Shown here in pieces: positions 17,017 through 50,445 of a stretch of 64,000 nt of DNA (position 1 is the first letter of the stretch; the number at the start of each line of letters is the position of its first letter). The notes below the pieces were generated by a model. It was not told the origin of the DNA and did not search any database. It saw only the letters and a list, made by a program, of their open reading frames with translations. Source of the DNA: Pseudomonadota bacterium (lineage in GTDB: Bacteria; Pseudomonadota; Gammaproteobacteria; Burkholderiales; JABEVD01); NCBI GenBank assembly GCA_021848825.1, contig JAJZTQ010000001.1:186001-250000 (forward strand), written 5' to 3'. A program made the position numbers and the translations under genes.

Positions 17017-17928
17017 ATGACTGCCTATATTGAAGACGAATTTGCGCAAGGCGCCAATCTTCCAGGAGAGGAAGAGCAGCAGGAGTCCTATGTCGAAGAA
17101 GGGGGATACGACGTCACTCAATTGTATTTCAATGAAATCGGGCAGAAGGCGCTTCTGACCGTCGACGAGGAAAGAATGCTGACCCGGCTGGTCAGGCAGG
17201 GTGATTTCCAGGCAAGACAGAAAATGATAGAGCACAATCTCCGACTCGTGGTCAACATCGCAAAACGCTATGTCAATCGCGGCGTGGCATTGCTCGACCT
17301 GATCGAGGAGGGCAATCTCGGCTTGATCCATGCCCTGGAAAAATTCGATCCTGAGCTAGGATTCAGGTTCTCCACCTATGCGACATGGTGGATCAGGCAG
17401 AATATCGAACGCGCGATCATGAATCAGTCGAGAACCATAAGACTTCCCGTCCATGTCGTCAAGGAACTCAATTCCATCCTGAAAACGATGCGGGACATGG
17501 AGAATACCCAGGACGAAAAGAACGCGGCCAATATCGCGAATCGCCTGGACATCCCGGTCGAGAATGTCAGATGGGCCCTTCGCCAGAACGAAAGAATGGT
17601 TTCACTGGATGCGCCGCTCGACATCGATCCCATGCTTTCCATAGGAGAATCGATACAGGACGAGCAGAATCTTCCGCCGGACATGATGCTCGAGCAATCG
17701 GAAATGCAGAAAATCGTGATCGAATGGATAGAGGATCTCGGTCCCAAGCAGCGAGAAGTGATCGAAAAACGATACGGTTTCAACGGCGAGGAATCGATGA
17801 CGCTCGAGCAGCTCGCGAAATGCCTCGGACTCACCAGGGAAAGAATAAGGCAGATCCAGATCGAAGCGCTTCAGCAGCTGAAGAAGCGCTTCATGGCAGA
17901 AGGCATCTACAAGGAAATGCTGCTATAG
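17017..17928 (+). CDS. rpoS: RNA polymerase sigma factor RpoS
   Basis: The 303-residue sigma factor shows region 2 ([30 protein letters not shown], split here as a long conserved block at about 76-105), the -10 binding [11 protein letters not shown] and region 4 ([18 protein letters not shown]). The [16 protein letters not shown]-terminal block and lack of a region 1.1 fit RpoS, the stationary-phase and general stress factor. GAGGAG at 17005-17010 is 6 bp before ATG. Unlike in E. coli, nlpD is not directly upstream; it is about 24 kb away at 41-42 kb. The stop overlaps that of mutS within CTATAG at 17923-17928. Confidence 0.93.
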
Positions 17929-20439
17929 CTTTTTCATGCTGTAGAGGAGTTCGAGCGCCTGTCTTGGCGTAAGCTCGTCAGGATCGGTCTCTTCCAGAAG
18001 GAGAAGCGCGGGATGGATTTCAGGCGGCTCGCTTCTCGAAAATAGATCACCCTGGGCCTGAACCGATTTTTCCTCGATCTTCTGCAAGAATTGCCTGGCG
18101 TTCCTGATCACCCCCTGCGGAATGCCCGCAAGCGCAGCAACCTGAAGGCCGTAGCTCTGGCTCGCAGGCCCTCTTTCTACGCTGTGCAGAAAAACGATGT
18201 GATGCTTGTGCTCGACAGCCGCAAGATGCACGTTGACGACCCTTTGAAATTCCTCTTCAAGCTGGGTCAGCTCGAAATAATGCGTGGCGAAAAGGGTCAG
18301 CGACTTGTTCTTCTCGATGAGGTGTTTCGCGATCGATCTCGCGAGCGCCAGTCCGTCGAAGGTCGATGTGCCTCGTCCTATTTCGTCCATCAGCACGAGA
18401 CTCGACTCGGTCGCATTGTTGAGGATATTCGCCGCTTCCGTCATTTCGACCATGAATGTGGATCGTCCTCCCGCAATGTCGTCCGATGCGCCTATCCTCG
18501 TGAATATCCTGTCCAGCACGCCGATCGTGGCGCGTCCGGCCGGGACGAAGGAACCCGCATGGGCGAGCAGGGCGATCAGCGCCACCTGCCTCATGTAGGT
18601 CGATTTCCCGCCCATGTTGGGTCCGGTGATGACGAGCATGCTGCGGCCGGCATCGAGCAACACATCGTTTTCCACGAAATTGTCGATCTGGCTCTCGACC
18701 ACGGGATGCCTTCCCCCTTCTATCCTGATCAGGGGTTCGTCCGTGATGACAGGCTCGGTGAAATTGAGGACGAGCGACTTTTCCGAAAAGGATGCGAGCA
18801 CATCCGTTTCAGCAACGGCCGAGGCGATTTTCTGCAATCTCGGGACATAGAAGACGAGCTTCTGAAGCAGCTCGTCGTAGAGCATCCTTTCCCTTGCCAG
18901 CGCCTTGTCATTGGCTGAGAGTGCGCGGTCCTCGAATGCCTTGAGTTCAGGGATGATGTAGCGCTCGGCATTCTTCAGCGTCTGGCGGCGCCTGTAATCC
19001 TCCGGAACGTTGCCTGACTGGGCGAGAGAAACTTCGATGTAGAAGCCGTGAACCTTGTTGTATTCGACTTTCAGCGTCTGTATGCCTGTACGCTCGCGCT
19101 CCCTCGTTTCCAGGTCGAGAAGATAGGTTCCGCAGTTTTCCTGTATTCCCCTCAGCTCGTCGAGTTCTTGATCGTATCCTGCCCTGATCACGCCGCCTTC
19201 CCTCAATACCGAAGAAGGCTCGTCCATGATGGATTCCTTCAGCAGGGAAAGAAGCGACTCGGGCGATTCGAGTTCTTCCGAGAGCTCGCCAAGGCGCACG
19301 GACTCCCTGTTCTCAAGCATGGCGATCAGTTCGGGAAGCAGCATGAGGCTTTCCCTGAGCCCTGAAAGGTCCCTGGGCCTTGCGCTCCTGAGCGCTATTC
19401 TCGATGCGATTCGCTCGATGTCGGCGCATCCTTTGAGCAGCTTCAGCAGGGCCCTGCAGTCTCGTCTCAAGTCGGACACTGCCGAAAGTCTTTTTTCTAT
19501 GCCCTTTTTGTCCGTCAGGGGATGATGAAGCCAGTGCCTCATGAGCCTGCTTCCCATGTTGGTGGAACAGGCATCCATCAGCGAATGCAGAGTGGGAGAG
19601 GGTTCCCCCCGCAATGTTTCGGTGATCTCGAGGTTTCTTCGGGTCGACGCATCCATCCCGAGATAGGTTTCATCACGCTCCACATCGAGGCTGACGATAT
19701 GCGCGAGATCGGATCCCTGCGCCTGTTTCGCATAATCGAGCAGGGCGCCTGCAGCCCTGATGGCAGGATCGTGATCTTCGCAGCCGAATCCCTTCAGATC
19801 CATCGTGCCGAACTGTCTGGAAAGCGCCTTCTTCGAATTTTCGAGGTCGAAATGCCATTCCGGGATGCGCCTCAAGCAGAACCTCGAATCATCGAAGTCC
19901 ATGCCTTCCGGGACGAGGATTTCGGAAGGCTTCAGCCTTTCGAGTTCGCTCTGCAGATTCGTCTGCTCGGTTTCCAGGATGCAGAATTTCCCGCCTGCAA
20001 GGTTAAGCCAGGCAAGACCGAGATTCTTGCCCGAGAGATGGCAGGAGAGCAGGATGCTTTCCCTGTTTTCGTCGAGAAGAGCGGAATCGGTGAGAGTTCC
20101 AGGCGTCACGATCCTGACGACCTTGCGCTCCACGGGCCCCTTGCTCGTTTGAGGGTCGCCGATCTGCTCGCATATCGCAACCGATTCCCCCATTTTGACG
20201 AGCCTGGCGAGGTACTGTTCGGCTGCGTGATACGGGACGCCCGCCATCTTGATGGGTTCATTGTTCGATGCGCCGCGCCGGGTGAGGGTGATGTCCAGCA
20301 GCTTCGCCGCCTTTTCCGCGTCGTCGAAAAACAGCTCGTAGAAATCTCCCATCCTGTAAAAGAGCAGCATATCCGGATGATCGGACTTGATCTTCAGGTA
20401 CTGCTGCATCACTGGGGTGTGCTTCGTTATGTCTTCCAA
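17923..20439 (-). CDS. mutS: DNA mismatch repair protein MutS (TTG start)
   Basis: The 838-residue protein has the mismatch-reading FYE motif at 33-35 in MGDFYELF and the Walker [10 protein letters not shown] at about 606-614, followed by [12 protein letters not shown]. MutS recognises mispairs and recruits MutL. The conserved N-terminal HTPVMQQYL places the start at TTG 20439, which gives the normal seven-residue lead-in; ATG 20508 would add 23 residues with no family match. The DNA over and upstream of this start (20401-20482) has a degenerate copy at 21105-21186. Confidence 0.95.
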
Positions 20440-20482
20440 TTCAGCGGTTCTTCGAGGGCTTGAGCGAATGGGGCTGATTTTA
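20401..20482. repeat. mutS 5'-end segment that recurs at 21105-21186
   Basis: This 82-bp segment covers the first codons of mutS and about 43 bp upstream. It aligns without gaps to 21105-21186 at 70 of 82 positions (85%). Eleven of the twelve differences are transitions. Here it contains the functional TTG start; the other copy has lost it. Confidence 0.9.
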
Positions 20483-20583
20483 CCGCAAATCGCGGATTCG
20501 GGGAGCAAGGCGGCGATGTAACCTTTCTTCAGTTTTCCGCGAATCAGCTTGCAGGATCAGCATTCAACCTGGAAGGAGAAGCG

Positions 20584-21069
20584 ATGGAAAAATTGCTGGC
20601 AGGTTTTCTTCTGCTCGCCATGTCCGCGGCGCAGGCAGGCGGCGTGACGAAGCAGGAAGCGCTCGGGAAACTCAATTCCGAGCAGTATTACGTCACGCAG
20701 CAAAACGGGACGGAGCCCCCGTTTCACAACGCATACTGGAACAATGAGACCGACGGGATTTACGTCGATGTCGTCTCGGGCGAAGCGCTCTTCAGCTCGC
20801 GGGACAAGTACGATTCCGGAACAGGCTGGCCGAGCTTCACGAAGCCGCTGGAGCCGGGCAACATCGTGCTGAAAAAGGACGGCAGTCTTTTCATGGAGCG
20901 CGTCGAAGTGAGAAGCAGGCACGCCGATTCGCATCTCGGACATGTATTCGACGACGGCCCGCAGCCGACAGGAAAGCGCTATTGCATGAACTCGGCTGCG
21001 CTGCGCTTCATCCCGGTGAAAGACCTGGAAAAAGACGGCTACGGCAAATACCTGAAACTTTTCAAGTAG
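20584..21069 (+). CDS. msrB: Exported peptide-methionine (R)-S-oxide reductase
   Basis: The 161-residue product has a signal peptide (about 1-18, ending AQA) and an MsrB domain. The catalytic Cys134 lies in [11 protein letters not shown]. It is the only Cys in the protein: the resolving Cys of the usual SGCGWPSF motif is Thr80 here, and the four zinc-binding Cys are missing. It should repair oxidised methionine in the periplasm using an outside reductant. AGGAG at 20574-20578 supports the start. It is divergent from mutS. Confidence 0.93.
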
Positions 21070-21104
21070 CCCGCCCCTTTGGCGTTCCCAATAGTGCTGG
21101 GGTC

Positions 21105-21186
21105 CTGCTGCGTCGCGGGGGTGTGCTTCGTTACGCCTTCCGATTCAGCGGTTCTTCGAGGGCCTGGGCGGATGGGATTGATTCTA
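21105..21186. repeat. Degenerate copy of the mutS 5' end
   Basis: In the 122-bp gap between msrB and the GGDEF gene lies an 82-bp sequence 85% identical to 20401-20482, in the same orientation. In the mutS frame it reads RRTAESEGVTKHTPATQQ, against [18 protein letters not shown] in mutS, so the start codon and internal Met are lost. Nine of the twelve differences are A or T in mutS and G or C here. Confidence 0.9.
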
Positions 21187-21191
21187 CTCCG

Positions 21192-24100
21192 TCAGCCTTC
21201 TTCGAGGTCAGCAGGCTCGAAAAATTGTACCCGCCCGCGCCCAGCCTGTTTCGCCTTATACATTGCCTGATCGGCAACCCGAAGAAGATCGTCTCCTGTT
21301 GAGCCGGCCTCGGGGAAAATAGCCACACCGATGCTTGTCGAGATCCCGACATCATGGCCGAGGATATGAAATGGCTGCCAGATTGCATTCATGATCCTGT
21401 CGATCATCTGACGGCATTCCGCTTCATCAATGATGCTCGTGAAAATAAGCACGAATTCATCGCCGCCAAGACGCGAAACTGTGTCAGTGATGCGGGATGT
21501 CGCAAGCAGTCTTTGCGCGACTTCAACCAGCAAAAGGTCTCCTGCTTCATGACCCAGATTGTCGTTGACCGGTTTGAATCCATCGAGATCCATGAAACAG
21601 ACAGCGAGCTTTTCTCCTTTGCGTTGCGCTTGAGCAATGGCCATGTCAAGCCGATCGCCGAGCAGATTGCGGTTGGGCAATCCAGTCAGGGCGTCATGAT
21701 GGGCCATGCGCTCGAGCTCTTGCTGCTGCCTCTTCAGATCCGAAATGTCGGAGAAGAGGCCGATATAGCGTATCGTTTCGCCTTCCTCGTTCTTGATGGC
21801 AGAGAGCGTCAATCTCTCGGGATAAATTTCTCCATTCCTGCGCTTATTCCATATTTCGCCAGACCAATGGCCCTCCTCAATGAGCTTGCGCCACATGGTT
21901 TCGTAGAAACCTCGATCATGGCGCCCTGAACGCAGGATGTTCGGGTTCTTGCCCAATGCCTCTTCTCGTTCGTGCCCCGTAATCCGGGTGAAGGCAGGGT
22001 TGACTTCCAGAATGGATGGCTCCCTGTCGGTGATGACGATGCCTTCGTCGGCATAATGAAATACGCTCGAAACGAGCCTCAGGTGTTCTTCAGCATTCCT
22101 GCGCTCGGTGATATCGTTGATGATCCCAAGGAAATGGGTCAACTTGCCGTTTTCGTCCAGGATCGGGGAAATGTGCAAATTGTTCCAGTAAAGCGAACCA
22201 TCCTTGCGGTAGTTTCGCAGCGTGGCTGTTCCGCTCCGTCCTTCCTTCAGCGCTGCACGAATCTGGTCGAGTTCTGGTTGATCCTGGTCATCAGATTGAA
22301 GAAAACGAACGTTTCTGCCGATCAGTTCCGTTTCGGCGTAGCCTGTGATTTTCTCAAATGCGGGATTTACGTAGATCAGAGACAAATCAGGAGTCGAAGC
22401 GTCGGCTATGGCGATGCCGTTCGTGCTGGCGTTCAATGCATTCGACTGGATACGGATGAGCGATTCGGCCTCCCTGCGATCCGTGACATCGATGCCTACT
22501 GTAAGCAGATAGGACGCTTTTCCTTCCTCGTCGAGGATCACCGTATTAGCCCAGTCCAGCACGCTGGCTTTCCCTCTTTTCGATACCCAGGTGCATTCAT
22601 ATCGCGTTTTTGAATTTCCAGAGAACGTGGCTTTAAAGATGCTTTCCGCCTCTGCCTGCTGCTCTCCCAAAATGAAATTTTTCCAGAAAAATGGCTTGCC
22701 TTCGACTTCGACGAAGGAATAGCCCGATATTTCTTCCGCTGCGCGATTGAATCTGACGATGCAGCCATTCCGGTCGATCGCAAGGATGGGGGAGCCTGCG
22801 GATTGAAAGAGCGCATCCATGAAGTCTCGCTCGTGGCGCAAGGCTTCCTGCAACTGCATGCGTTCTGTCACATCGTCAAAGATGGCGACTACCTCTCCGC
22901 TTTCTATTTTGTAAAGATAAATGTCGCGCCATCCGGAGATCCGCTCGTCGCGGTAAAAAGAAACGGGAAAATGTTCCGGATTCCCGCTTCTCCAGACTCT
23001 GCAGATTGCTTTGAGCAGCCCGATTTCCACTACACCGGGAAACACTGCCGTCAGCGTCTTGCCTGTCAGCTCTTCACGCCCTATTTTGTTGATGCGCTCG
23101 AATGCCCGATTGGTTCGGGTGAACTCGAAATCCGAGCCGTCCTGGATTGCCTGATACACCGCCACGCCGCTGCTCATGTTCTCGAGCAATTCTTCAAGCC
23201 GTTTCCTGCTCTGACGAAGCGCTTCGTCCTTGGCCTTGCGCTCGCTGATATTTCTCGAAGAACAGAAGAGTACGGGGTGGCCTTCCAGTTCGAGCGGATA
23301 AACGCTGATCTCGACGTCTATGATCTTGCCATCCTTGCGCCGATGCCGGGTTTCGAACTGGCTTCGCCCTTTTTGGGCCAGCCGAAGCTTCAAGTTTGTG
23401 CGAATTTCGGAAGGGGAATACGTGGCATCCCATCGCGACACATGCATCCCTATCAATTCGTCCCGCTCGTAACCCAGCATCTTGCAGAATGAATCGCTGC
23501 ATTCTATGAGATTGCCCTCCACTCCCAGGATATAGATGCCGTCGCTGGCATTGCGGAGGAGCGCATAATTCTTCTCGTTGACCCTTTGCAGTTCCTGGTT
23601 GCTTGAGAGAACAGCTTGTCTCGATTCGATCAGCTTTCGAACAAGCGGGGCGACCATCAGGTAAAGCAACAGTTCGCCCAGCAAAACCAGGGTGGTCAAT
23701 AGCACCGCGACCTGCTTCAGCTGCTGGGTGGCGGGACCAAACAATTCACGCCGGTTTATCTTCAAAACCATGCCGAGCCCGGTATCATCCACCGGCGAAT
23801 AGGCAGCGACGACTTCCCGCCCTCGATAATCCTTCGAAAAGGCGACACCGGCTTTTCCATCAAAAGCGTGATTGATAGGCAGCATGTTGCCATCGATGCT
23901 GCGATGAAGTCGCTCGAATCGGGCGCCTGTATCCCTTTTCAGGTAACAGTCCATGTCATCTCGCTCGACTGGGGCGCACAAGGCTACTTCACTGGTATGT
24001 CCTGCCATCTCCATCTCGCTGAGCATTTTGTTCAGCGAAGCGAGAGAAGATTCGGCTACTATGTGGCCAATTCGCTTTCCCTGATAATTTAGAACGTCGC

Positions 24101-24566
24101 TCTCGACATGCAAAACGAACTGCTTGTCCCAAGACAGGTATGCGCCATGAGAGGCATTCAGCGCAATGCGCTGATCGGAGATGGTCGAGAAAGTGCCGGC
24201 TGCCGCCACCTTTGCACCCTGTGCATCGTAGTAGGCCGCGCCTACGAATCTCTGCGAGGAAACGAAGGATTCCGCGATCCGGTTCAGATTGGCAACGGCT
24301 TTCGCGTTTTGGGAATTTGCATCAAGTTCCGTCAGGCTGTCGACGATGAAGGGCCGGGTTGACATCATTCTTGCATCTGCCAGGCCGTCACCTATACTGG
24401 ATCGGAGCAATGTCACGCCGCTCTTGAGGGAAAGCTGGAGGCTTGTCCTCAATATCCCCTCCGAAGCATTCAACATGATGAAATAAACAGAAACACCGGC
24501 TGCAAGAGTCAGCGTCATCAGGATCAGGAATCCGACTATGCTTATTCTTCGCTCATCCGACTTCAC
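21192..24566 (-). CDS. Membrane multi-PAS diguanylate cyclase with a LOV-like domain
   Basis: The 1124-residue protein has a membrane segment at about 10-31, a periplasmic sensor region (32-283), a second membrane segment (about 284-305), five PAS modules (about 335-445, 455-570, 580-700, 705-825 and 830-945) and a C-terminal GGDEF domain. GGDEF is intact at 1034-1038 and the inhibitory RxxD site is present (Arg1025, Asp1028). It should make c-di-GMP. The fourth PAS resembles a LOV domain (NYRKDG, FLGIINDIT), but its GRNVRFLQ motif has Val753 where LOV photoreceptors have the reactive Cys. The start is GTG 24566 with AGAGG just upstream. Confidence 0.88.
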   Translation of the reverse strand: MKSDERRISIVGFLILMTLTLAAGVSVYFIMLNASEGILRTSLQLSLKSGVTLLRSSIGDGLADARMMSTRPFIVDSLTELDANSQNAKAVANLNRIAESFVSSQRFVGAAYYDAQGAKVAAAGTFSTISDQRIALNASHGAYLSWDKQFVLHVESDVLNYQGKRIGHIVAESSLASLNKMLSEMEMAGHTSEVALCAPVERDDMDCYLKRDTGARFERLHRSIDGNMLPINHAFDGKAGVAFSKDYRGREVVAAYSPVDDTGLGMVLKINRRELFGPATQQLKQVAVLLTTLVLLGELLLYLMVAPLVRKLIESRQAVLSSNQELQRVNEKNYALLRNASDGIYILGVEGNLIECSDSFCKMLGYERDELIGMHVSRWDATYSPSEIRTNLKLRLAQKGRSQFETRHRRKDGKIIDVEISVYPLELEGHPVLFCSSRNISERKAKDEALRQSRKRLEELLENMSSGVAVYQAIQDGSDFEFTRTNRAFERINKIGREELTGKTLTAVFPGVVEIGLLKAICRVWRSGNPEHFPVSFYRDERISGWRDIYLYKIESGEVVAIFDDVTERMQLQEALRHERDFMDALFQSAGSPILAIDRNGCIVRFNRAAEEISGYSFVEVEGKPFFWKNFILGEQQAEAESIFKATFSGNSKTRYECTWVSKRGKASVLDWANTVILDEEGKASYLLTVGIDVTDRREAESLIRIQSNALNASTNGIAIADASTPDLSLIYVNPAFEKITGYAETELIGRNVRFLQSDDQDQPELDQIRAALKEGRSGTATLRNYRKDGSLYWNNLHISPILDENGKLTHFLGIINDITERRNAEEHLRLVSSVFHYADEGIVITDREPSILEVNPAFTRITGHEREEALGKNPNILRSGRHDRGFYETMWRKLIEEGHWSGEIWNKRRNGEIYPERLTLSAIKNEEGETIRYIGLFSDISDLKRQQQELERMAHHDALTGLPNRNLLGDRLDMAIAQAQRKGEKLAVCFMDLDGFKPVNDNLGHEAGDLLLVEVAQRLLATSRITDTVSRLGGDEFVLIFTSIIDEAECRQMIDRIMNAIWQPFHILGHDVGISTSIGVAIFPEAGSTGDDLLRVADQAMYKAKQAGRGRVQFFEPADLEEG

Positions 24567-24778: not shown

Positions 24779-25282
24779 TCAGCGAAGGGCTGAAAGCGCC
24801 TTTTCGTAATCTGGCTCCTCTTCGATCTTGCCGACCAGTTCGACATGTCGAACGATGTCATCTTTGTCGAGCACGACGACCGCGCGCGCGGCAACGCCTG
24901 AAATCGGCCCGGTCTTGATCGCGACGCCGTAGTTCTCCAGAAATTCCCTACCCCTCATCGTCGAGAGGGTGATGACATTTTCAAGCCCTTCTGCTGCGCA
25001 AAAGCGGCTCTGGGCAAAGGGAAGGTCGGCTGAAATGCATAAAACAAGGGTATCTGGATGGGCGCTTGCGGTTTCGTTGAATCGCCTGACTGAAGCCGCA
25101 CAGGTCGGCGTATCCAAGCTTGGAAAGATGTTGAGGATTTTTTTCCTTCCCTTGAAGCTGTCCAGCGTCATGTCCCTGAGATCCTTACCGACAAGGGAAA
25201 ACGGAGGGGCATGTTCTCCGATTTCGGGCAATTTTCCTGAAACCTCGATTGGATTTCCGCCAAGCGTTACAGTCGATCCCAT
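24779..25282 (-). CDS. tpx: Thiol peroxidase Tpx
   Basis: The 167-residue peroxiredoxin has the peroxidatic Cys61 in [12 protein letters not shown] and the resolving Cys95 in [11 protein letters not shown], the Tpx pattern. It reduces hydrogen and lipid peroxides with thioredoxin. I start at ATG 25282 because GGAG at 25289-25292 is well placed and the family N-terminus begins there; ATG 25306, eight codons upstream, lacks a binding site. It lies upstream of the GGDEF gene on the same strand, 212 bp apart, with a possible terminator between. Confidence 0.94.
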
Positions 25283-25435
25283 TTTCGCTCCTTTTTTGTC
25301 AGACATGCATAAATCATAGGAAATGGTTCGATGCGGGTAAAGAAATCACGTTTCACATTGCCAAAATTGATATTTCGAAGAACAGGATGCAGAATTATCT
25401 TATGATGAAGTTTTACGTTGCGCCATAAAACAGGC

Positions 25436-48623: not shown

Positions 48624-49049
48624 ATGAAACTTGCTCAGCGCGGATTCACCCTGATCGAAATCATGGTGGTCATCGTGATCATAGGCATTCTGGCCGCATT
48701 GATCGTCCCCAAAATAATGAGCAGACCGGACGATGCGCGGATCGTCGCCGCAAAGCAGGACATCGGTTCCATCATGCAGGCGTTGAAGCTCTACAAGCTC
48801 GACAATCACGCCTATCCGACGACCGAGCAGGGTCTCGATGCGCTCGTGAAAAAACCGGCGACGCCGCCCATTCCACAGAACTGGAAGTCCGGAGGATATC
48901 TCGAGAAGCTTCCTGTTGACCCATGGGGAAAGCCCTATCAGTATCTCAATCCGGGACTGCATGGCGAAATAGACGTATTCAGCTTCGGCGCTGACGGTAT
49001 GCCGGGCGGGGAAGGAAATGACGCCGATATCGGTTCCTGGGAACTCTAA
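48624..49049 (+). CDS. gspG: Major pseudopilin GspG
   Basis: The 141-residue prepilin has a short leader cut at [11 protein letters not shown] with Glu5, a helical spine, and the GspG features [11 protein letters not shown] and the calcium-site tail [21 protein letters not shown]. It forms the pseudopilus. AGGA at 48612-48615 precedes ATG. It opens the rightward operon, 60 bp from gspC. Confidence 0.97.
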
Positions 49050-49515
49050 TAGCCAGCAAGGCGGATTCACGCTCCTGGAAATACTGGTTGTTCTGCTCGT
49101 CATCGGCATCATCTCTGCGGCCGTCGCGCTCGGCGTCTCGATGGACGACAGGAGAACAACCGCAATCGAGGCTTCCCGTCTTGCAGACCTCCTCGAAGAA
49201 GCCGAAGAGGAAGCGATGAGCCGTGGGGAGAAGCTCGCCTGGTCGGGGGCCGGGGATTCCTACCTGTTCTGGAAAATGGATGAGGCCGGAAAATGGCAGC
49301 AAATCGCTGACGACGATCTCTTCAAGGGCCATGTTTTTCAGGATGGCATCAGCATCGATGCAGTCAACCTGAACGGCCTGCCGTCCGACAAAAAAATCGT
49401 TTTCAACCCTTCAGGCGTCAATACCCCTTTCAGGATTGTCCTCTCCGGAACCGAATCGAAGATCGGCATTTCAGGCGACGCCATGAATCGGGTAACGGTC
49501 GAGTCGAATGAATGA
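49018..49515 (+). CDS. gspH: Minor pseudopilin GspH
   Basis: The 165-residue prepilin has a longish leader and a processing site at [14 protein letters not shown]. It overlaps gspG by 32 bp, and GAAGGA just before ATG 49018 supports this start. GspH is part of or near the pseudopilus tip complex. Identity rests on position and the N-terminal motif; the rest is variable. Confidence 0.88.
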
Positions 49516-49873
49516 GGAAAAGGGCTTCACGCTCTTCGAAACGTTGATTGCGCTTGCCATCATCGCGATCGCGCTGACCGCCGTATTGCGCGCGTCCGCC
49601 CAGGCTGGCGAAAATGCCTATGATTTGAGACAGAGAATGCTCGCGGACTGGGTTGCTCAGAACAGGATGGCCGAGATCACCGCCCTGCAGATCTGGCCGG
49701 ATTTCGGGAACCTGTCAGGAACTGAAACCGAAGCGAACGAGGATTTTTCATGGGAAGAAGAAATCACCTCGACGCCCAACCCTCTTTTCAGGAAAATCGT
49801 GATTAGCGTATATGACGGGCAACAGCACATGCTGCGCCAATTGACAGGCTATCTGATTCGCCCCATGCCATGA
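49508..49873 (+). CDS. gspI: Minor pseudopilin GspI
   Basis: The 121-residue prepilin has leader MNEEKG cut before FTLFETLIALAI. The ADWVAQNRMAE segment and small size fit GspI, a tip subunit. It overlaps gspH by 8 bp and gspJ by 4 bp (ATGA). Confidence 0.92.
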   Translation: MNEEKGFTLFETLIALAIIAIALTAVLRASAQAGENAYDLRQRMLADWVAQNRMAEITALQIWPDFGNLSGTETEANEDFSWEEEITSTPNPLFRKIVISVYDGQQHMLRQLTGYLIRPMP

Positions 49874-50445
49874 GGAAAGAAAAAGGCTTCACGCTCGTCG
49901 AAATCCTGATCGCCGTCTCGATACTAGCCCTGATCTCCGTCATGGCTTTTAGGGGGCTTTCCTCCGTGATCGAAACGAGGATGCATGTTTCCGAGGAAAC
50001 CAGGAAATGGCATGATATTTCCCTTTTCTTTTCCAGGTTCGGCGAAGATCTGTCCGGCCTGATACACCGTCCCGCCACGGATCAATCCGGGCTGGTTCTG
50101 CCCGAATTCGAAGGCAAGACAGACTATTCGGGTCCACTCGACGCCAACATCCTTTTCACGAGAATGGGAGATGAAGACCGGAACGACGAAAGGGTGGGCT
50201 ATCGACTCAATCAGGGAAAGATAGAGGCCCTGCTCTGGGCGCATGTCGACCAGGCGCCGGGAACGAAGCCTGATATCTATCCCCTGCTCTCCCATGTCAG
50301 GTCTTTCGAATTGCGCTATCTCGCAATCAACAATACCTGGGTTCCCTTCTGGCCGCTTCCGGGGCAGATTCGGCCGAAGGCAGTTCAGGCCAGCGTGACG
50401 CTTGAATCGGGAGAGAAAATCGTGCGAACCTTTTCGCTGTTATGA
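49870..50445 (+). CDS. gspJ: Minor pseudopilin GspJ
   Basis: The 191-residue prepilin has leader MRKEKG cut before FTLVEILIAV, followed by the ISVMAFRGLSSV segment and the LFFSRFGEDLSGL region typical of GspJ. It joins GspI and GspK at the pseudopilus tip. Both ends overlap neighbours as ATGA. Confidence 0.93.
   Translation: MRKEKGFTLVEILIAVSILALISVMAFRGLSSVIETRMHVSEETRKWHDISLFFSRFGEDLSGLIHRPATDQSGLVLPEFEGKTDYSGPLDANILFTRMGDEDRNDERVGYRLNQGKIEALLWAHVDQAPGTKPDIYPLLSHVRSFELRYLAINNTWVPFWPLPGQIRPKAVQASVTLESGEKIVRTFSLL

Follow-up and report, generated by a model that had tools for sequence, protein, structure and literature searches.

A lineage-specific partial duplication of the mutS 5′ end beside an extra msrB gene in a Burkholderiales bacterium

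In the 64,000-nucleotide stretch of Burkholderiales DNA analyzed here (the window), the start region of the mismatch-repair gene mutS is present twice, once at the gene itself and once, in degenerate form, on the far side of the neighboring gene msrB. This arrangement raises the question of what the second copy is: one member of a dispersed repeat, the trace of a recombination event, or an element that has come to act in its own right.

The repeat pair and its surroundings

The mutS gene (17923..20439, minus strand) runs for 838 codons from a TTG start at 20437-20439 and carries Pfam MutS domains I-V; the place of its start is common to five of seven sister genomes, its reading frame is open, and the genome also contains a MutL C-terminal domain. 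Its 5′ end, which we call copy A (20397..20483, minus strand), comprises about 14 codons, the start codon and the leader. A −10-like TAAAAT can be read by eye at 20477-20482, and a consensus promoter scan of 20300-21400 found no promoter. Next comes an inter-repeat segment of 617 bp (20484..21100, plus strand) composed of msrB and its upstream region, with msrB itself at 20584..21069 on the plus strand (161 aa, SelR domain PF01641, and an N-terminus that by eye resembles a signal peptide). Copy B, the degenerate duplicate of the mutS 5′ end (21101..21187, minus strand), occupies the gap between the stops of msrB and a convergent gene for a PAS/GGDEF diguanylate cyclase (21192..24566, minus strand), whose stop codon lies 4 bp beyond copy B.

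The sequence-only reading that drew attention to this locus had described an ungapped match of 70/82 between 20401-20482 and 21105-21186, with eleven of twelve differences being transitions, and two copies in the same orientation flanking msrB. We reproduced this alignment exactly, the remaining difference being a single transversion, and local BLAST together with a repeat finder lengthened the pair to 87 nt (20397-20483 and 21101-21187; 74/87, 85%). The two copies are direct repeats at a spacing of 704 that enclose exactly one gene, and they are identical over at most 21 consecutive bp. A search of the whole genome (2.74 Mb, 55 contigs) with copy A recovered copy B at E = 5.3e-21. Homology longer than 87 nt is unsupported: to the left, shuffled sequences scored as well in 805/1000 trials over 31 nt and in 692/1000 over 100 nt, and to the right in 309/1000 over 60 nt, with a weak hint, in an alignment with many gaps, from one of the four extension tests (100 nt to the right, 25/1000). 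An assembly artefact is an unlikely source of the repeat, because the copies differ in sequence and both lie inside a contig of 346,762 bases.

The sole other direct-repeat family listed in the window (at least 40 nt, no more than 6 kb apart) is weaker and lies at 49.0-49.9 kb. It consists of three weak 44-nt direct repeats (49048-49913, spacings 460 and 362), which resemble prepilin-type gene starts (GFTL-E motif).

Copy number, direction of change and the extra msrB

A dispersed repeat that includes the mutS 5′ end and a partial duplication had both been proposed for this pair, and copy number favors the latter. At E 0.001, the repeat unit occurs at two places in its own genome, and among 59 other genomes it was matched in three, each time within mutS, so that a search for further copies of the 82-bp unit in the genome and its relatives returned nothing beyond copies A and B and mutS. 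A dispersed family, with more than two copies at unrelated loci, is not supported at this threshold. Copy B has instead the properties of a partial-duplication relic: it is similar to a functional gene of the same genome (the match at E 5.3e-21 given above), it is truncated to 87 nt and has lost its start codon, as had been claimed (TTG has become TCG), and the changes are derived in the copy at five of the six differences in the coding part. The repeat pair is a real, lineage-specific partial duplication.

The direction of change was read from eight sisters of the same genus, whose mutS proteins are 71-80% identical and seven of which have the mutS 5′ end (G004 does not); the G001 sequence holds about 340 bp ahead of the mutS start codon. 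At the aligned start-codon place, the seven sisters have TTG in four cases and ATG in one, while two differ, and copy B reads TCG. The copy A base is present in all seven sisters (7/7) at each of 20408, 20411 and 20432. It is present in six of seven at 20438, the start-codon site, where G008 has the C of copy B at a poorly aligned place, and in five of seven at 20430, where the other two have the copy B base. The only transversion is at 20413. Here the sisters carry either a third base (five) or the copy B base (two) and never that of copy A, so copy A itself may have changed there. This comparison, which had been suggested as a way to tell which copy is ancestral, supports copy A as the original and copy B as the derived form at five of the six coding-part differences. 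Since sister matches to the unit stop at 20444 or earlier, the six leader differences cannot be polarized. Because the leader is common to copies A and B and the sister matches end at 20444, the duplication would be younger than the split from the compared sisters.

The enclosed msrB is an extra copy. An rpoS-type sigma gene adjoins mutS in all nine genus genomes, our own included, and all nine also have an msrB no more than 0.8 kb from a second sigma-factor paralog, at a distance of 55 bp in our genome and 697-767 bp in the eight sisters. Each of these sisters has one msrB match, never on the mutS contig. Since the single msrB of the sisters sits by the sigma-factor paralog, and our genome has that one (G000:C40:196233-196649) plus the copy beside mutS, the window msrB is the additional one; msrB adjoins mutS in 1/9 genus genomes, namely ours. 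At the DNA level, the window msrB is 79% identical to the G008 copy and 75% identical to the second copy of its own genome, and a tree of 24 of the 37 MsrB matches gave no resolved placement for its source. In a scan of named genomes, mutS relatives reached no more than 65% identity among the best 80 of at least 593 loci.

Our genome also has seven rpoS-like sigma-factor matches (E 1e-60 or better), at 17017-17928 in the window and on contigs C54, C40, C32, C44, C12 and C26 of G000, whereas each of the eight sisters has between two and four.

A probable insertion at the mutS 5′ end

We consider copy B to be probably a non-functional relic of the event that placed the extra msrB beside mutS. 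We infer that duplication and msrB insertion were one event, and that the route was recombination. DNA carrying msrB, corresponding to the 617-bp segment, would have entered the chromosome where mutS begins, doubling 87 bp of the target as it did so. A circular or concatemeric molecule with the same 87 bp could have integrated by a single crossover, or a staggered or illegitimate join could have had an equal outcome. An insertion that duplicates its target leaves an arrangement of this kind, in which direct repeats flank a one-gene insert at the end of a conserved gene. Copy A, attached to the body of mutS, would then have kept its role as leader and start, while copy B, beyond msrB and severed from mutS, would have drifted. 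The demonstrated parts of this account are the repeat, its presence at two places only, the direction of change and the extra msrB. Recombination between the copies could possibly delete msrB, as the sequence-only reading had pointed out.

A comparable outcome has been described in Escherichia coli, where 14 clones sequenced after single crossover with an incoming circle carried duplicated target of 109-950 bp (PMC3240628). Those lacZ duplications and our case share an insert between direct copies of a common stretch, one of which stays with the gene while the other is severed. They differ in that the event here is old (15% divergence between the copies), the stretch in common measures 87 bp, and nothing of a vector is left.

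Judging from the coordinates, removal of the insert would leave about 48 bp between the end of the GGDEF gene and the start of mutS, both read in one direction, and GGDEF and mutS would then make a natural tandem pair. Counting against the insertion model, the right-hand side of the locus is also rearranged, in that neither the GGDEF gene nor its neighbor tpx adjoins mutS in the sisters. The best sister match of the GGDEF gene comes from G003, where it and mutS are on separate contigs. The tpx-like peroxiredoxin gene beyond the GGDEF gene (24779-25306) finds no counterpart among the eight sisters at E 1e-30, which suggests that tpx was gained in our genome's own lineage. With tpx unmatched and the G003 relative of the GGDEF gene off the mutS contig, the right-hand side is variable as a whole. 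Two further points weigh against the model, namely that the MsrB tree does not place the source of the extra gene and that no mobile-element gene lies between the copies.

Other readings of copy B

Could copy B act in RNA instead? Because mutS and msrB are divergent and the direct repeat lies beyond msrB, a transcript reading through from msrB would be antisense to the mutS leader, and on this excludon-like reading it would silence mutS translation and so tie the repair of oxidized methionine to the level of mismatch repair. The predicted duplex between the mutS leader and 21070-21191 is −139.6 kcal/mol, whereas none of 1952 random 122-nt stretches taken from the window did better than −74.7. 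A 27-nt core that can pair without interruption if G-U is allowed (20433-20459) spans the start codon and the 20 nt preceding it, and no terminator turned up in a scan of the interval from the msrB stop to copy B. However, complementarity of this kind arises from any such direct repeat, and there is no sign of selection on it: six of the twelve changes keep pairing as G-U, which is the expectation for random transitions, a core of 27 nt is what would be expected (P = 0.54), and neither full pairing of the start region (P = 0.11) nor the 21-bp identical run (P = 0.26) stands out. We regard a silencing role for copy B as very unlikely.

The idea is nevertheless testable, because RNA pairing near the ribosome-binding site is known to lower MutS in E. 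coli, where mutS is repressed by ArcZ in this manner and by SdsR as well (PMC11331407). Unlike with ArcZ and SdsR, the predicted complementarity here comes from a duplicated stretch beyond a neighbor's stop codon. We hold it very unlikely that the insertion made an accidental regulator, in which an 82-nt stretch of the msrB read-through would sequester the mutS start, so that induction of msrB would lower MutS and raise the mutation rate. If true, it would mean a regulatory RNA born in one step from a duplicated start region and acting on mismatch repair. Our literature search found no paper that joins partial mutS duplication with antisense or small RNA, and, among the 10 of 89 papers listed, nothing on point by title for duplicated gene fragments as an origin of bacterial antisense RNAs; neither outcome proves absence.

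An insert that is bordered by direct repeats and sits where a mismatch-repair gene begins also recalls an integrative element, with copies A and B as its left and right attachment sites and the element since reduced to msrB. The SpyCI islands, which are reported to sit in the mutL 5′ end of Streptococcus pyogenes (PMC3430984, PMC4689407), are a precedent for insertion at such a place, and a term search of PMC4689407 for repeat or att words gave no hit. Unlike with SpyCI, no integrase or phage genes are seen here, the segment is 617 bp rather than an island, and mutS retains its leader and start. Moreover, only one gene lies between the copies, msrB, and it is not that of a mobile element; the nearest tyrosine-recombinase match (PF00589) on the contig is about 103 kb away, leaving about 100 kb free of any; and 87 nt at 85% identity is long and diverged for a core site. 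We find an origin as attachment sites hard to credit.

It is very unlikely, in our view, that copy B, lying where msrB and the GGDEF gene converge, was remodeled to serve as a terminator or 3′ hairpin. The intergenic region on the plus strand folds at −51.5 kcal/mol, with 12/200 shuffles as good, and on that strand copy B folds better than copy A, a gain equaled, in context, by 68/2000 random placements of the changes. Yet the other randomizations give 240/2000 (unit, plus strand), 1313/2000 (unit, minus strand) and 624/2000 (context, minus strand), the minus strand has a z of 0.08, there is no T-run, and the terminator scan lists none in the stretch. The gain is largely a matter of higher G+C, as random changes alone shift the mean from −35.5 to −45.4. 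Selection for a hairpin in copy B, marginal in one of four randomizations (68/2000), was rejected on the other three.

Searches for structured RNA gave no Rfam match at gathering score in 19500-22000, and for copies A and B alone (E up to 10) two matches, both far below that score. A Hammerhead_II match inside the GGDEF gene (21720-21783, minus strand; 22.8 bits against 37 needed, E 0.14) is most likely due to chance. The stretch 20439-20467 (minus strand) and its copy B equivalent resemble, in the same sense, how the tandem glycine riboswitch (RF00504) of sister genomes ends at its 3′ side. A genome-wide search with longer DNA had listed weak matches to 20439-20467 in four sisters (E 0.12 to 0.58), and these turned out to be glycine riboswitches. 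Over 29 nt, the mutS leader differs from the riboswitch of G007 by a single mismatch and a gap of 3 nt, and our own genome's riboswitch is similar too. Against single riboswitch sequences, the leader scored above most or all of 300 shuffles (G001 left out), and several unrelated matches in the genome-wide search had E values similar to or better than those of the riboswitch matches. Given E values of 0.12 to 0.58, the fact that our genome's riboswitch is unlisted at E 1 in that search, and the lack of any Rfam glycine riboswitch at copy A or B, the likeness is probably chance.

The substitution pattern had been called striking beside a mismatch-repair gene, a judgment that depends on the baseline. 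Transitions make up 33/49 of the sisters' noncoding differences, a baseline of 49 differences in which G007 takes part in all four informative comparisons and to which three of seven gave none. At mutS fourfold sites they make up 46-53% in the three closest sister pairs and 22-33% in the other 33 pairs, which are saturated. For transition shares of 0.5, 0.6 and 0.67, at least 11 transitions among 12 differences have probabilities of 0.003, 0.02 and 0.057, respectively, so that the claim holds better on fourfold sites (about 0.003) than on the noncoding baseline (about 0.06), and transition bias is weak evidence of unusual decay. Nine differences had been counted as A/T in copy A and G/C in copy B; there are in fact 10/12, nine transitions and the T-to-G transversion (P = 0.019 at equal odds). 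This gain of G+C is a mild oddity that fits mutS fourfold sites, with 75% G+C in our genome and 74-83% across nine genomes, and not the intergenic 50% (1136 bases, 9.7 to 33.9 kb of the window). Drift toward G+C is made plausible by the fourfold sites, though not by the intergenic bases.

An A:T to G:C transition spectrum marks the loss of mismatch repair in bacteria. That a past repair-deficient phase left this signature in an unconstrained copy B agrees with the nine such transitions among 12 differences (P between 0.0004 and 0.06 when the share is assumed to lie between 0.25 and 0.48), but the idea is post hoc and draws on 12 sites, the transition share alone has P of about 0.06 on the sister noncoding baseline, and both mutS and mutL are present, which leaves it barely credible.

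Read as the relic of an insertion, the locus would be a clear small example of gene gain at a conserved locus by one recombination, in which the gain duplicates the 5′ end of the neighboring gene and may be dated after the split from the compared sisters.
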